A stretch of 64,000 nucleotides of DNA from Dokdonella fugitiva (lineage in GTDB: Bacteria > Pseudomonadota > Gammaproteobacteria > Xanthomonadales > Rhodanobacteraceae), in assembly GCF_014138265.1 (NCBI RefSeq), contig NZ_JACGXL010000005.1:186001-250000 (forward strand). Direction: 5' to 3'. Shown in pieces: positions 49,802 through 56,029 of this stretch. The translations under genes and the position numbers were made by a program. Position 1 is the stretch's first letter, and every line of letters begins with the position of its first letter. The notes below the pieces were generated by a model. That model worked only from the letters and a program-made list of their open reading frames with translations, was not told where the DNA came from and did no database searches.

Positions 49802-49978
49802 CTCCGTCGCGCGGCGGAATCGTCGCTGCGCAACGTCCCTCCGCGGGGCGGAATCCTTGCTACACACGTCCTGTTAACGTCGTCGGGTTGGGGAACCCGG
49901 TGCGTCGTGCCCGGCCGTGTCGACGGTCGGTCGGATGGCGGCCGACCATGCAGGGACGTCCGTGTATCCGCGTGCGAA

Positions 49979-52900
49979 ATGGGGGTTGTGAGAGTGAACA
50001 GGTATTCGATCAAGGCAGGCATGCTGCTCGTGCTCGGCATGTCCGCCACGGCGGCGTGGGCGAGTCCCAGCGAGGCTTACTGGCACGACGACGCGGCGCG
50101 CAATCCCGCGCCTGGCGCGCCGCACCCGGCCGCGTGGCGGTCGCTTTCGCTCGATACGAGCGATGTCGCGCGCTACCTGAAGGCCGCGCATGAGCGCGGC
50201 ATCGCGACGTCGATCGCGCTGCCGCAGCCGGACGGCGGGTTCGCCGACTTCATGGTCGTCGATTCGGGCACGTTGCCGCCCGAACTGCAGGCGAAGTATC
50301 CGGACATCCTGAGCTTCAAGGGCAGCGACGCACAGGGTCGCCCGGTCCGCCTCGACGTGTCGCCAATGGGCTTCCAGGCGATGGTGTTCGATCCGGCCGG
50401 CATCTGGGTCGTGCGCCCGGAAGTGCTCGGTGCCGGCTCCAGCTACATGAGCTTCAAGCGCAGCGGCCTCGCGATCCCCGACGGCATGGGGCGCTGCGAC
50501 GTGCACGAGCAGGGCATCGATGCGGCCGGCAAGCACCTCGTGCCGAGCCAGCCGATGACGCAGACCGGCGTCAACCATCGCGTGTATCGCGCCGCGGTCG
50601 CGGCGAACCACCAGTACATCGCCGCGGTCGGCGGCGGCACCGTCGCCGGCGGCCTCTCGGCGACCGTCGTCGCGATCAACCGCGTCACCCAGGTGTACGA
50701 AACGGAGATGGCGATCCAGCTGACGCTGGTGCCGAACAACGACCTGCTCATGTACGCGAGTACGTCGGGAGATCCGTTCGGCAGCAACGGCACGGGCGTC
50801 ATCAACAATTCCACCTCGGTCATCAGCGGCGTGATCGGTGCCGCCAACTACGACATCGGCCACGTGTTCACGACCGGCAGCGGCGGCGTGGCCGGGCTCG
50901 GCAACGTCTGCGGCAGCAGCAAGGGGCGCGGCACGACCGGCCTGCCGAACCCGACCGGCGACGCGTTCTACATAGATTTCGTCGCGCACGAGATGGGCCA
51001 CCAGTTCGGCGGCAACCATCCGTTCAACGGCACCGGCGGCAACTGCTCGGGCGGCAACCGCAACGGCCCGACCGCGTACGAGCCGGGCAGCGGCTCGACC
51101 ATCATGGCTTATGCGGGCATCTGCAGCGCGGACGACCTGCAGCCGCATTCCGATCCGTACTTCCACGCGATCAGCCTGCAGGAAATCAACAACTACACGA
51201 ACGGCGGCGGCAACTGTTCGGTCAACACCGTCAACGACAACCACGCGCCGGTGATCGACAGCGGCAGCCTGCCGACCGGGTACACGATCCCTGCGCGCAC
51301 GCCGTTCGTGCTGAGTGCGTCGGCGAGCGATACCGACGCCGCCGACACCGTCACCTATTCGTGGGAGGAGTGGGATCTCGGTGCCGCCGCACCGCTGACG
51401 ACCGGCGACAACGGCAGCAGCCCGATCTTCCGCGCATGGCCGCCGACCGTGAGCGGCGCGCGCATGTTCCCGAAACTGTCCACCGTGCTCACCGGCACCG
51501 CGCTCAAGGGTGAAACGCTGCCGACGACCACGCGCGCCCTGAAGTTCCGCCTGACCGCGCGCGACCAGCGCCCGGCCTTCGGCACGACGCAGAGCGCGGA
51601 CATCACCGTCAACGTCGTCAACAGCGCCGGCCCGTTCCAGGTCACCGCGCCGAACACCGCGGTGTCGTGGGCGCAGGGCAGCACGCAGTCGGTCACCTGG
51701 GACGTCGCCAACACGACGGCCGCGCCGGTCGGTTGCAGCGCGGTCGACATCGCGCTGTCCGCCGACGGCGGCCAGACGTTCCCGTACGGCCTCGCCAGCG
51801 GCGTCGCCAACTCCGGCAGCGCGAGCGTCACCGTGCCGGCGATCGCGACGACGCAGGGCCGCGTCAGCGTGGCGTGCGCGAACAACATCTTCTTCGACAT
51901 CTCGAACGCCAACTTCACCATTCCCGCGGCAGCGGGAACGTTCACCGTCGGCGGCAGCGTTTCCGGCCTCGCCGGCGGCGGGCTGGTGTTGCAGCTGAAC
52001 GGCGGCGACGACATGGCGGTCGCGGTCAACGGCAGCTTCACGTTCCCGGCCGCGCTGGCCGGCGGCGCGGGCTACGCCGTCACCGTGGGCGCGTCGCCCG
52101 CGCATCCGGCGCAGACCTGCGCGGTGGCGAACGGCAGCGGCACGATTGGTGCGGCCAATGTCAGCAACGTCTCGATCACGTGCACGACGACGCCCGCAGC
52201 GACCTACACGATCGGCGGCAGCGTGAGCGGTCTGGTCGGCAGCGGCCTCGCGCTCAAGCTCAACGGCGGCACGGCGTTGCCGATCGCGGCGGACGGTCCG
52301 TACACGTTCCCGAACGCGCTCGCCGACGCCAGCGTCTACACGGTGATGATCTCGTCGCAGCCGGCGGGTCAGACGTGCACGCTCGCGCACGCGAACGGCA
52401 CGCTCACGGGCGCGAACGTCACCAACGTCGACGTCAACTGCACGGGCGGCGGTGCGAGTTACACCGTCGGCGGCAGCGTGAGCGGCTTGACCGGCAGCGG
52501 ACTCGCGCTGTCGCTCAATGCGGGCGCGCAGACCGTTCCGGTCGCCACGAACGGCGTGTTCACGTTCCCGACCGCGCTCGCCGATGGTTCGGCGTACGCG
52601 GTCACGGTCGGCACGCAGCCGTCGGGACAGACGTGCTCGGTCGCCAACGGCAGCGGCACGATCAGCGGCGCGAACGTGACCAATGTCGCGGTGACCTGCG
52701 CGGCCATTCCGACCTATACCGTCGGCGGCACGGTCAGCGGGCTCGCCGGCGGCAGCGTCGGACTGTCCCTGAATGGCGGCGCGCAATCGCAGTCGGTCGC
52801 CGCGGACGGCTCGTTCGCGTTCCCGACCGGACTCGTCAACGGCGCGACCTACACCGTGACCATCGCGACGCAGCCGTCGCCGCAGACCTGCGTGGTCAGC

Positions 52901-53584
52901 AACGGCAGCGGCACGATCGCGGGCGCCAACGTGACCGACGTGGCCGTGACCTGCGCGGGCATCGACGCGATCTTCACCGACGGCTTCGACGGCAACGCGC
53001 TGCCCGGCCAGCCGGTGCAGGACCCGGGCTTCGAATCGACCACCGCGGACGGCGGCAGCAATCCGTCGTGGGAGAGCGTCGACGGCAACGAAGGTGCGGG
53101 CGGTGGCACGAACCTCTACAGCGACCTCGGCGAATTCGACACGCTTCCGATCCACGACGGCCACTGGGTGACCTGGTTCGGCGGCTGGGGCGGCGGCGCG
53201 GAAATCCAGCACGTCGCGCAGAGCGTGACGATCGCGGCCGGCGCGCCGCGCTACCTCAACTTCTGGCGTCTCATCGATTCGCTGCCGGACGCGGCCGGCA
53301 CGCTGACGGTGTCGATCGACGGCAATGCGGTCGACACGCTCGACGTCAGCAGCGCGACGCCCGATGCGGCCTTCACGCAGCAGTCGATCGACATCAGCGC
53401 CTATGCGAACGGTGCCGCGCACGTGATCCGCTTCCAGTACCAGTACGACGACGCGGGTGGTTCGGGCGTGGACGGCAACGTGTTCATCGACGACGTGACG
53501 GTCGACGCGACGTCGGCGAGCCCGCGCCCGGCGCCGGTGCGTCCGCATCGATCGCTGGGCACGCGGCACAAGCACGCGCGCTGA
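49979..53584 (+). CDS. Secreted reprolysin-like (metzincin) metalloprotease with four C-terminal repeats
   Basis: 1,201 residues from the ATG at 49979; GTGs at 49988 and 49994 are alternative starts. Signal peptide YSIKAGMLLVLGMSATAAWA. Propeptide-like region to ~180. The catalytic domain has the extended zinc motif HEMGHQFGGNH (337-347) and a downstream Met-turn SGSTIMAYAGIC. Fibronectin/cadherin-like segments follow (~420-650). Four repeats of ~85 residues start at ~654, 742, 827 and 912 (TVGGSVSGL ... QTCxVxNGSGTIxGANVxNV). After IFTDGFDG a jelly-roll-like C-terminal domain (~1010-1190) may aid adhesion or export. Followed by a strong terminator. Confidence 0.9.
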   Translation: MGVVRVNRYSIKAGMLLVLGMSATAAWASPSEAYWHDDAARNPAPGAPHPAAWRSLSLDTSDVARYLKAAHERGIATSIALPQPDGGFADFMVVDSGTLPPELQAKYPDILSFKGSDAQGRPVRLDVSPMGFQAMVFDPAGIWVVRPEVLGAGSSYMSFKRSGLAIPDGMGRCDVHEQGIDAAGKHLVPSQPMTQTGVNHRVYRAAVAANHQYIAAVGGGTVAGGLSATVVAINRVTQVYETEMAIQLTLVPNNDLLMYASTSGDPFGSNGTGVINNSTSVISGVIGAANYDIGHVFTTGSGGVAGLGNVCGSSKGRGTTGLPNPTGDAFYIDFVAHEMGHQFGGNHPFNGTGGNCSGGNRNGPTAYEPGSGSTIMAYAGICSADDLQPHSDPYFHAISLQEINNYTNGGGNCSVNTVNDNHAPVIDSGSLPTGYTIPARTPFVLSASASDTDAADTVTYSWEEWDLGAAAPLTTGDNGSSPIFRAWPPTVSGARMFPKLSTVLTGTALKGETLPTTTRALKFRLTARDQRPAFGTTQSADITVNVVNSAGPFQVTAPNTAVSWAQGSTQSVTWDVANTTAAPVGCSAVDIALSADGGQTFPYGLASGVANSGSASVTVPAIATTQGRVSVACANNIFFDISNANFTIPAAAGTFTVGGSVSGLAGGGLVLQLNGGDDMAVAVNGSFTFPAALAGGAGYAVTVGASPAHPAQTCAVANGSGTIGAANVSNVSITCTTTPAATYTIGGSVSGLVGSGLALKLNGGTALPIAADGPYTFPNALADASVYTVMISSQPAGQTCTLAHANGTLTGANVTNVDVNCTGGGASYTVGGSVSGLTGSGLALSLNAGAQTVPVATNGVFTFPTALADGSAYAVTVGTQPSGQTCSVANGSGTISGANVTNVAVTCAAIPTYTVGGTVSGLAGGSVGLSLNGGAQSQSVAADGSFAFPTGLVNGATYTVTIATQPSPQTCVVSNGSGTIAGANVTDVAVTCAGIDAIFTDGFDGNALPGQPVQDPGFESTTADGGSNPSWESVDGNEGAGGGTNLYSDLGEFDTLPIHDGHWVTWFGGWGGGAEIQHVAQSVTIAAGAPRYLNFWRLIDSLPDAAGTLTVSIDGNAVDTLDVSSATPDAAFTQQSIDISAYANGAAHVIRFQYQYDDAGGSGVDGNVFIDDVTVDATSASPRPAPVRPHRSLGTRHKHAR

Positions 53585-53603
53585 AGCGTCGCGATCCGCT
53601 TCC

Positions 53604-53633
53604 GAGGCCTCCCTCCGGGGAGGCCTCTTTTTT
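53604..53633 (+). terminator. Strong intrinsic terminator of the protease gene
   Basis: GAGGCCTCCC-TCCG-GGGAGGCCTC followed by T6: a perfect 10-bp stem, 20 bases past the stop. Confidence 0.92.
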
Positions 53634-53681
53634 GCTCGAGGCACTGCGCGCTCGTCCGCCGGCACGGTCCGCGCGAGGCGC

Positions 53682-53710
53682 TTGTAAGCGCCTGTACCTG
53701 CTAGTATCCT
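53682..53710 (+). promoter_or_regulatory. Predicted promoter for the tRNA-Ser region
   Basis: -35 TTGTAA (53682-53687), 17-base spacer, -10 TATCCT (53705-53710). Transcription would begin near 53717, about 15 bases before the outer stem of the tRNA-like element. Confidence 0.5.
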
Positions 53711-53731
53711 GCGCGGCCCGCCGAGCGGGCA

Positions 53732-53910
53732 TGCGTGCGGAGAGGTGTCCGAGTGGTTGAAGGAGCACGCCTGGAAAGTGTGTAAACGGGTCAAACCGTT
53801 TCGCGGGTTCGACCAATTCGTCGGGAACGAATTGGGACAGCCGCAGGCTGGCCCCTCGCGCCGCGAGGGGTGAGGCGCAGGAAGCGCCGAACAATCCCGC
53901 CCCGCACGCA
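53732..53910 (+). ncRNA. tRNA-Ser-like element with an 81-nt structured insert in its T loop
   Basis: Bases 53739-53812 (74 nt) are identical to the first 74 nt of the intact tRNA-Ser(GGA) at 53920. Right after T-loop TTCGA comes an 81-nt insert (53813-53893), then ATCCCGCC, which restores the 3' T-stem strand (GCGGG 53803-53807 with CCCGC 53896-53900). The insert holds four perfect hairpins: CCAATTCGT/ACGAATTGG, CAGCC/GGCTG, CCCCTCGC/GCGAGGGG and GGCGC/GCGCC. The normal acceptor 3' strand and CCA are absent; instead TGCGTGCGG (53732-53740) pairs perfectly with CCGCACGCA (53902-53910). It may be an RNA with its own role, a mobile insertion, or a decaying duplicate. Confidence 0.65.
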
Positions 53911-53919
53911 GCAAGTTAC

Positions 53920-54011
53920 GGAGAGGTGTCCGAGTGGTTGAAGGAGCACGCCTGGAAAGTGTGTAAACGGGTCAAACCGTTTCGCGGGTTCGAATCCCGC
54001 CCTCTCCGCCA
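53920..54011 (+). tRNA. tRNA-Ser (GGA)
   Basis: 92 nt with encoded CCA. Acceptor GGAGAGG/CCTCTCC, anticodon arm CACGC-CTGGAAA-GTGTG (anticodon GGA), long variable arm ACGGGTCAAACCGT, T arm GCGGG-TTCGAAT-CCCGC. Probably co-transcribed with the tRNA-like element upstream. Confidence 0.96.
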
Positions 54012-54054
54012 GATTTTGTTCCGATCACGTGCCCGTGCGTGATCGCCGTTTTAT

Positions 54055-54167
54055 GGTGGCTCCGTCGGTTCTCCCGCGACGATAACCAGCAAACCCGGTC
54101 AGGCCCGGAAGGGAGCAGCCGTAGTTGGTGATTCGGGTGCCGGGATGCAGCTGGCGGAGCCGCCACC
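54055..54167 (+). ncRNA. ffs: 4.5S signal recognition particle RNA (small bacterial type)
   Basis: About 113 nt. The universally conserved domain IV is present (GGTCAGGCCCGGAAGGGAGC, AGCC), and the ends pair as GGTGGCTCCG ... CGGAGCCGCCACC. Also GTCGGTTCTCCCGC and GGTGCCGGGATGCAGCTGGC match the 4.5S RNA pattern. It binds Ffh to form the particle that targets inner-membrane proteins. Location between tRNA-Ser and dnaX is usual for the order. Confidence 0.95.
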
Positions 54168-54179
54168 TCGTATCCGGAT

Positions 54180-54211
54180 GTCCGAACTCGTCCATCGGGA
54201 CGAGTCCGGAC
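54180..54211 (+). other. Long hairpin after ffs
   Basis: GTCCGAACTCGTCC-ATCG-GGACGAGTCCGGAC forms a 14-bp stem with one A-C mismatch, 12 bases past ffs. There is no T tract; it could be a processing barrier for the 4.5S precursor or a REP-like palindrome. The rest of 54168-54388 shows no gene. Confidence 0.45.
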
Positions 54212-54388: not shown

Positions 54389-56029
54389 ATGTCCTACCAA
54401 GCCCTCGCGCGCAAGTGGCGCCCGCGTCGCTTTTCCGAACTCGTCGGGCAGGAGCACGTCGTGCGCGCGCTCACCCACGCGCTCGACAGCGGGCGCCTGC
54501 ACCACGCGTTCCTGTTCACCGGCACGCGCGGTGTCGGCAAGACGACGATCGCGCGCATCTTCGCCAAGTCGCTGAACTGCGAGAAGGGACCGACCTCGAA
54601 CCCGTGCGGTGAATGCGCGGCGTGCGCCGAGATCGACGCCGGCCGCTTCGTCGACCTGCTCGAGATCGACGCGGCCAGCAACACCGGCGTCGACAACGTG
54701 CGCGACCTCATCGAGAACGCAATGTACGCGCCGACGCGCGGGCGCTACAAGGTGTACCTCATCGACGAAGTGCACATGCTGTCCAAGCCCGCGTTCAACG
54801 CGCTGTTGAAGATCCTCGAGGAACCGCCGCAGCACGTGAAGTTCCTGCTCGCGACGACCGATCCGCAGAAACTGCTCGTGACCGTGCTGTCGCGTTGCAT
54901 CAAGTTCAACCTCAAGCGCCTTTCGCCGGAACAGATCGGCGGCCAGATGCGCCACATCCTCGGCGCCGAGCACGTCGCGTTCGACGACGAAGGCATCGAC
55001 GTACTCGCGCGCGCGGCCGACGGCTCGCTGCGCGACGGCCTGTCGCTGCTCGACCAGGCGATCGCGCACGGCGGAGGCGCGCTGCACGCGCACGAAGTGC
55101 ATGCGATGCTCGGCACGGTCGAGCGCGCGAAGGTGCGCGTGCTGCTGGAGATCCTCGCCGCCGGCGACGGTGGCGCGCTGCTCGCCGAGGTCGAGCGCAT
55201 CGCGGAGTTCTCGCCCGATTTCGCCCAGGTGCTCGACGAGCTCGCCGGGTTGTTGCATCGCATCCAGTTGCTGCAGCTCGTGCCCGACGCGGCCGGCGAC
55301 GACGGCGCCGAACTCGGCGCGCTCGCGTCGCGCCTGGCTGCGCAGGACGTGCAGCTGTGGTACCAGATGGCGGTGACCGGCCGGCGCGACCTGCCGCTCG
55401 CGCCGACGCCGCGCGTCGGTTTCGAGATGGCGTTGCTGCGCATGCTCGCATTCGTGCCGGCCGGCGCGATGGGCGCGACCGCCGCGCGTCCGACCGCGCC
55501 GCCTCGCGCGGCCGCGGCGCCGGCGTCGGCCCCGGCGCGCGCCGATGCACCACCGCCGCTGCCACGCGAATCGCCGCGCAGGATCGAGCCGGCCGTCGAG
55601 GCGCGAATCGATCCGCCGCGTGCGTCGAAGCCCGACGCGTCGGCGGCACCGGCCGACTGGGCCGGCCTGATCGATCGCGCAGGCCTGCGCGGGCCGGTCG
55701 GCCAGCTCGCGCAGAACGCGACGCTCGTCGCGATCGAAGGCAACGTCGTGCGCCTCGCGATGGACCCGTCGTACGAACATCTCGCCGAAGGCTCGATGGT
55801 CGGCCTGCTCGAACAGCGCCTCGGCGGCGCGCTTGGGCGCGACGTCAAGGTGAGGTTCGAACGCGCCGCGTCCGGTGCGCAGACGCCCGCGGAGCAGCGC
55901 ACCCGCGCCGAGACCGCGCGCCGCTCCGCCGCCGAGGAAGCGGTGCAGGGCGATCCGTTCGTGCAATCGATGATCGAGACGTTCGGCGCGCGCGTGATCC
56001 CCGACAGCATCCGCCCCACCGACGGCTGA
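54389..56029 (+). CDS. dnaX: DNA polymerase III tau/gamma subunit
   Basis: 546 residues. The clamp-loader ATPase has LARKWRPRRFSELVGQEHVV, Walker A GTRGVGKTTIA, four zinc cysteines in NCEKGPTSNPCGECAACAEI, Walker B VYLIDEVHMLSKPAFNALLK and sensor LLATTDPQKLLVTVLSRCIK. Domain III follows to ~370; then a Pro/Ala linker (~375-430) and the C-terminal alpha-binding domain (DWAGLIDRAGLRGPVGQLAQ). No slippery A-AAA-AAG site is visible, so the short gamma form may not be made as in E. coli. Starts the dnaX-ybaB-recR set. Confidence 0.96.
   Translation: MSYQALARKWRPRRFSELVGQEHVVRALTHALDSGRLHHAFLFTGTRGVGKTTIARIFAKSLNCEKGPTSNPCGECAACAEIDAGRFVDLLEIDAASNTGVDNVRDLIENAMYAPTRGRYKVYLIDEVHMLSKPAFNALLKILEEPPQHVKFLLATTDPQKLLVTVLSRCIKFNLKRLSPEQIGGQMRHILGAEHVAFDDEGIDVLARAADGSLRDGLSLLDQAIAHGGGALHAHEVHAMLGTVERAKVRVLLEILAAGDGGALLAEVERIAEFSPDFAQVLDELAGLLHRIQLLQLVPDAAGDDGAELGALASRLAAQDVQLWYQMAVTGRRDLPLAPTPRVGFEMALLRMLAFVPAGAMGATAARPTAPPRAAAAPASAPARADAPPPLPRESPRRIEPAVEARIDPPRASKPDASAAPADWAGLIDRAGLRGPVGQLAQNATLVAIEGNVVRLAMDPSYEHLAEGSMVGLLEQRLGGALGRDVKVRFERAASGAQTPAEQRTRAETARRSAAEEAVQGDPFVQSMIETFGARVIPDSIRPTDG

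Follow-up and report, generated by a model that had tools for sequence, protein, structure and literature searches.

The DNA analysed here, a stretch of 64,000 nucleotides from Dokdonella fugitiva that we call the window, contains an intact tRNA-Ser(GGA) gene (53920..54011; ARAGORN, Rfam) with the SRP RNA gene ffs as its neighbour (54063..54159; Rfam, 70.5 bits) and, further on, a clamp-loader gene assigned by a domain match to DNA polymerase III gamma/tau (54389-56029), whose best counterpart among 12 relatives compared is that of D. fugitiva, at 89% identity. Upstream of the intact tRNA gene there is a second, incomplete one. An earlier note, made from the letters, had described it as a 74-nt exact copy of tRNA-Ser(GGA) whose T loop is opened by an 81-nt insert of four hairpins and whose T stem is then resumed, and both descriptions were borne out. 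Positions 53739..53812 match the opening 74 nt of the intact gene base for base, ending at the T-loop GTTCGA, the insert occupies 53813..53893, with boundaries supported by relatives and by comparison with the tRNA, and the 3′ strand of the T stem, ATCCCGCC, is taken up again at 53894..53901, so that the insertion point reads GTTCGA^ATCC. The intact tRNA-Ser(GGA), ffs, the tRNA copy, its insert and the parts of both described below are on the plus strand. ARAGORN calls only the intact tRNA-Ser(GGA) at this locus.

Within the insert, hairpin 1 (53813..53835) carries GGA in its loop at 53824-53826, hairpin 2 (53838..53850) reads CAGCC GCA GGCTG, hairpin 3 (53851..53871) varies in length among relatives and hairpin 4 (53874..53888) has CAGGA in its loop, with the GGA at 53880-53882; the first two are supported by fold and covariation, the third by covariation, and the fourth by covariation and the conservation of its loop. 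In the predicted fold, the whole is enclosed by a 9-bp outer stem, TGCGTGCGG/CCGCACGCA, whose strands lie at 53732..53740 and 53902..53910. The fold of the hairpins with this outer stem has an energy of -89 kcal/mol, whereas shuffled sequences average -72.2 (z -4.16; none of 200 shuffles as good). The outer stem, also reported in the earlier note, is indeed present (a stem as good arises in 12 of 300 shuffled 3′ flanks), but it is not conserved in relatives. Its conservation was rejected by comparing the 24 upstream-type tRNA-Ser(GGA) copies with a computable stem (one more has no recognisable tRNA start), as the best stem of each has its own position and its own letters. In seven of the 24, no more than 12 of 300 shuffles do as well as the best stem, but these seven stems are not alike, and three of the seven pair duplicated flanks through G-T pairs.

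The region before the tRNA copy is bordered at its 5′ side by a terminator-like hairpin (53604-53627) and includes a block, CTGCTAGTATCCTGCGCGGCCCGCC (53698..53723, plus strand), that is a possible tRNA promoter and has a similar counterpart in the related locus L013. Although a plausible promoter had been proposed at this place, a sigma-70 scan of 53560-54200 found none, which leaves the CTGCTAGTAT-type block, also present in L013 and in altered form in L027 and L037, as the only basis of that proposal. Further upstream, a frame of 1225 aa (49907-53584) contains a reprolysin-like metallopeptidase domain (M12B) and has a long tail that is repetitive by eye. No Rfam 15 family exceeds its gathering score on the 81-nt insert; between 50000 and 58000, only tRNA and bacterial SRP pass, and the same two were the only families above threshold in six relatives. 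A weak match to Rfam sX4 (31.7 bits, gathering 70) spans the tRNA-Ser and its downstream spacer at 53910-54064, and sX4 itself may be a tRNA-Ser-linked RNA.

The window copy is not a unique feature, as BLAST with 95 bases around the insert as the query gave matches in many relatives. Two covariance models were used: R1, which was built from 33 copies and includes the T-loop flanks, and R2, a core model without tRNA flanks. With the window's own genome counted each time, R1 matches were found in at least 187 of 233 genomes of the family (E<=0.01) and in at least 158 of 369 sampled genomes of the class (E<=1e-3), while R2 matches were found in at least 95 of 398 sampled genomes of the phylum (E<=1e-4), including genomes that belong to other classes than the window; all three tallies are lower bounds, since 18, 11 and 12 candidates, respectively, were scored per genome. 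One genome, G447, has 65 element matches. The window's own genome has six R2 matches, namely the window copy, four copies in tandem at tRNA-Ser(UGA) and an intergenic one. The tandem copies (L217; contig C1, about 383537-384090) are accompanied by partial tRNA-Ser(UGA) copies directly upstream of the intact tRNA-Ser(UGA), and one of them aligns to the anticodon loop. The intergenic copy (L209; contig C7:179688-179755) is, by eye, flanked by a long inverted repeat, GGTTCCTTTTCTT / AAGAAAAGGAACC.

The covariance search for compensatory changes, which the earlier note had suggested, was strongly positive for all four hairpins. It used an alignment (A5) of 65 diverse cores, nearly all taken from 109 non-redundant cores (eight named matches, those outside 80-112 nt and near-duplicates having been removed), with a few re-trimmed or swapped for a near twin. 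In these 65 copies, 94.1% of stem cells are paired and two-sided changes occur at 21 of the 24 pairs; there are 243 two-sided cells, compared with 26-61 when the partners are slid by 1-3 columns and with a mean of 52 in shuffles. In 28/65, hairpin 3 has a G-U pair at its base, which suits the modelled strand, as RNA or as single-stranded DNA. Two loops are conserved. An aligned GGA is found in loop 1 in 63/65 (in all 65 if a shift of one base is allowed) and in loop 4 in 64/65, where CA precedes it in 62/65, so that this loop reads CA(n)GGA(n)G above a stem that varies freely. The GGA is also kept in copies away from tRNAs, in the region of hairpin 1 in 60 of 61 and in hairpin 4 in 56 of 61. 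At L013, most of the tRNA part is gone, hairpins 1, 3 and 4 remain and hairpin 2 has lost pairs.

From the fetched loci, 195 of 201 matches were kept as distinct copies, and 129 of these have a same-strand tRNA no more than 400 bases away, five have one on the opposite strand and 61 have none nearby; these counts are biased, because many loci were chosen by their best R1 match and R1 contains the T-loop flanks. Both sides of the insert could be aligned to the nearest intact tRNA for 102 copies, which are in the T loop (89), the anticodon loop (8), the D loop (3) or at an unclear place (2), and 27 further copies align to a nearby tRNA on one side only. At the junctions, 85 of the 89 T-loop sites read GTTCGA^AATC or GTTCGA^ATC, six of the eight anticodon-loop sites have TTGA^A or TCGA^A and the other two CTTG^A, and two of the three D-loop sites read GGTCGA^A. 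The apparent target overlap is 0 or 1 base in 94 of the 102 copies, the other eight being negative or misaligned. As the 5′ match of downstream copies is often only 7-11 bases long, most of which R1 requires, this side says little about the target of such copies and the target counts lean towards T loops. T loops, although the most frequent GA^A target of the sample, share that role with D and anticodon loops, ERIC repeats, coding genes and intergenic repeats. In tandem copies, the tRNA piece is repeated together with the insert, and both copies with the 5′ part of a tRNA (upstream of intact tRNAs) and copies with the 3′ part (downstream of them) occur. The short GTTC/GAAC pairs that close the T-loop copies are partly target sequence; no autonomous element was seen.

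Outside tRNA genes, one case comes from E. coli, where the ERIC repeat at L275 contains an exact insert of 71 bp with a GTGA^ATCCCC or GTGA^GTCCCC junction, as judged against L312 and L313; the latter, an ERIC of MG1655, is closely similar to L275 and has no such insert. L275 and L313 form an exact filled and empty pair, although at different loci, and no pair at the same site was found. L273 and L274 appear by eye to have the same insertion, and a Klebsiella copy adjoins an ERIC-like end. With this Klebsiella copy as the query, matches were obtained in 604 of 5426 E. coli genomes, at a median of one place per genome. ERIC repeats were recognised by eye from the RU-1 consensus in the consulted part of PMC2759123. 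The putative kinship of the window copy, although it is located in a tRNA, with the ERIC insertions rests on the shared structure, on the models and on a BLAST match between the window insert and the Klebsiella copy (45% of the query, 88.4%).

Copies are also found in coding frames. In G447, an array of five full units and one partial unit of 72 bp (L276) is inserted head to tail and in frame before a NuoG domain, adding repeats of 24 residues; the NuoG match starts right after the array, at model position 1, and Fer2_4 is above its cut-off, while the whole-protein cut-off for NuoG is not reached because the frame ends at the edge of the fetched stretch. In both G447 and G436, copies are present at GGTGGA^ATCC in a frame that adjoins a recombinase gene (Recombinase and Resolvase domains); no Pfam family matches this copy-bearing frame. 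Another locus of G447, L160, has copies in both orientations inside one long open frame, which argues for movement as DNA, and some copies distant from tRNAs are antisense to an open frame. The start GAC or GAT is found in only 49 of the 61 copies away from tRNAs. Regarding a possible landing in hairpin loops, flank pairing in 59 tRNA-distant copies has a mean of 5.19, compared with 4.81 for mismatched flanks and with 5.11 as the largest mean in 200 shuffles; stems of at least 7 number seven, against a shuffle mean of 3.7 and a maximum of 11, and several of the top rows are tRNA-derived.

Some copies apparently travel with something larger. For instance, four of the six equal-scoring copies examined in G433 (L200, L206, L214 and L220) are inside a larger dispersed repeat and were apparently carried along by it, and copies in G684 and G734 share flanks with larger repeats. 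A larger mobile unit is nonetheless out as the general case, since the tRNA and ERIC copies share no such flanks. A linkage to Y1 transposases, the obvious candidates and the ones expected for a REP/RAYT or IS200/IS605 derivative, was also rejected. There were 34 Y1_Tnp matches, and 30 of these loci were checked over 1.5 kb on each side in 10 of 11 copy-bearing genomes; no credible copy flanks them (one R1 match at E 0.03 and four R2 matches at E 0.2-0.86), and G093 has 21 R1 matches at E<=0.1 yet no Y1_Tnp match.

We consider it probable that the 81-nt insert belongs to a family of non-autonomous mobile hairpin elements and that the tRNA sequence around it arose as a side effect of duplication. 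The copies are about 70-95 bp long, with four hairpins in a fixed order and GGA in loops 1 and 4, and the element inserts in one orientation after the GA of a GA^A-like target, with a duplication of at most one base at nearly all tRNA sites examined. As GTTCGA^A is common in T loops, tRNA genes are frequent landing sites. Disruption of an essential tRNA gene that is present only once would be expected to kill the cell, so the survivors would be those insertions linked to a partial tandem copy of the tRNA that leaves one intact gene, and this would explain why both 5′-part and 3′-part copies are observed. The lack of a gene, the short asymmetric target, the single orientation per target and the conserved loops suggest that the element is mobilised in trans by a supplied enzyme, perhaps acting on folded single-stranded DNA, and tandem copies could arise by excision and reintegration or by unequal exchange. 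The window copy would have no function of its own. Among its readings, which also took in a putative decoy for RNase P or processing, the earlier note had included a small self-mobile insertion targeting T loops. The mobile insertion is well supported, but, as there is no gene inside the element, nothing suggests self-mobility, and T loops are not its exclusive target.

Mobility alone does not explain the retention of one downstream-type copy. An alternative that we regard as doubtful, although possible, is a domesticated small RNA capped by a tRNA, in which the hairpins would have been kept after insertion and the transcript made together with the tRNA. A minihelix of acceptor and T stem would close this RNA and give it a 3′ end like that of a tRNA, and RNase P and the enzymes of tRNA 3′ processing might trim it. 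The copies concerned (L011, L012, L017, L021, L025 and L028, picked by hand from genera g6, g18, g24 and g4) lie between tRNA-Ser(GGA) and the SRP RNA gene, both of which were confirmed in all six genomes. Pairwise identity at this site, with the same-genus pair L011/L012 excluded, is 0.82-0.91 in the element, 0.67-0.76 in the preceding spacer, 0.79-1.00 in the tRNA-like tail and 0.46-0.58 in the following spacer, so that the element and the preceding segment are much better kept than the spacer that follows; part of this retention may, however, be due to tRNA gene conversion. The segment that precedes the element pairs with the tail as an outer stem, GAGAGAGTGGG/CCCGCTCTCTC in L011 and GAGAGGGTGGG/CCCGCCCTCTC in L012, so that both strands have changed between two members of a single genus. 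When 99 pattern matches were roughly sorted by tail motif into 48 downstream-like copies and 51 others, the stem score was at least 8 in 26 of the 48 and the stem was reached by at most one of 100 shuffles in 17, but the other 31 miss this threshold, and several of the best downstream stems pair terminator or duplicated sequence elsewhere. Thus, judging from sequence comparison, the copy at this site in the four genera may be a constrained, domesticated RNA with a tRNA-like end. This cannot be transferred to the window copy, which is of the upstream type and whose outer stem is not conserved; a tRNA-derived regulatory RNA, as once suggested for it, is not supported either, given L013, where hairpins 1, 3 and 4 stay and the tRNA part is mostly gone.

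The conserved loops allow another reading, decidedly unlikely in our view, according to which the hairpins are candidate binding sites of the CsrA/RsmA type, and transcribed copies would serve as sponges for the protein and be propagated along with this activity. GGA is located in hairpin loops, as a sponge of this type would need, loop 4 has it in 64/65 copies as CA(n)GGA(n)G on a stem that is free to vary, and copies such as GCACAAGGATGTGC presumably resemble the CsrA SELEX consensus. By contrast, GGA is kept equally in tRNA-distant copies, some of them antisense to an open frame, and therefore looks intrinsic to the mobile DNA. It is very improbable that the insert was left behind by site-specific integration in which an integrase of phage or island type used a core within the T loop. 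Although a crossover in the T loop and a reconstituted neighbouring tRNA resemble tRNA integration, the element is also inserted in D and anticodon loops, ERIC and coding genes, both 5′-part and 3′-part copies occur, and the repeated unit is the element rather than an attachment core. Finally, an assembly artefact or the simple decay of a duplicated tRNA gene, for which only the repeat nature of the locus speaks, can be dismissed almost entirely, since copies with compensatory changes are present in many species and in single-contig genomes, the latter leading us to reject an artefact.

Regarding known systems, a non-autonomous mobile hairpin element differs from a classical MITE by the lack of a fixed-length target duplication of more than one base (0 or 1 base in 94/102 tRNA copies), and we have consequently not classed it as one. 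Insertions in ERIC have been described since the 1990s; Sharp in 1997 and Wilson and Sharp in 2006 reportedly found insertions of about 70 bp inside enterobacterial ERIC (IRU) repeats, and to our knowledge these have been described only within ERIC. The L275 copy is one of them (71 bp, GTGA^ATCC) and occupies their fixed internal ERIC site. Hairpins and GGA loops are common to both, whereas members of the present family occur throughout the phylum and have also entered tRNA loops, coding genes and repeats of other kinds. The rtT locus of E. coli tyrT consists of tandem 178-bp units beside a tRNA gene, each with 19 bp of the tRNA-Tyr 3′ end, and this general description resembles the tandem repeats found here, which adjoin a tRNA and each include a piece of it. 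REP/RAYT and IS200/IS605-derived hairpin elements have strand-specific hairpins, a short asymmetric target and little or no target duplication; these traits are shared, the difference being the lack of a credible copy at the 30 Y1_Tnp loci.

Other comparisons can be made with published descriptions. In the consulted parts of PMC2229807 and PMC10969869, the Rickettsia palindromic elements (RPE) are small, structured elements of 105-146 bp that lack a transposase and lie both in RNA genes and, in frame, in genes for proteins. Both are also observed here, insertion in frame in the array that precedes the NuoG domain and residence in RNA genes in the tRNA loops; the present element differs from RPE, as far as their description goes, by its four separate hairpins and its GA^A target. 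The YPAL/RU-2 elements of Yersinia, according to sections of PMC2229807 and PMC2759123, are about 168 bp long, produce target duplications of 3-26 bp and are inserted within or beside dyad symmetry; the part of their published sequence that we compared contains CCAAGGATGG and ACATGGATGT, which by eye are similar to hairpin 4, and the placement of the targets is also alike by eye. The excerpts consulted of PMC2229807, PMC2759123, PMC10969869 and PMC2267715 do not mention tRNA T loops in their accounts of small repeats. A wider literature search, by title and the beginning of the abstract and with most subscription journals outside its scope, found no description of T-loop inserts of this kind, and six short stretches of the element searched in the literature were not found.

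The element is filed with the small, structured, non-autonomous elements of bacteria. An unlikely, more ambitious synthesis would have one mobile hairpin element, present over the whole phylum, that recognises GA^A, lands in tRNA loops and thereby disperses CsrA-like GGA hairpins, with the long-known ERIC insertions as one local branch; at the tRNA-Ser(GGA)-SRP site it would have become a small RNA capped by a tRNA minihelix and processed by the tRNA maturation machinery. As for its meaning, odd repeats flanking tRNAs, ERIC insertions and palindromic inserts in frame, which had seemed unconnected, are brought together here in a single family whose structure covaries strongly and whose target can be defined. 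The mover of small bacterial palindromic repeats, an old question, thereby becomes directly testable, and the family offers a natural case of a selfish element that enters tRNA loops without killing the tRNA.
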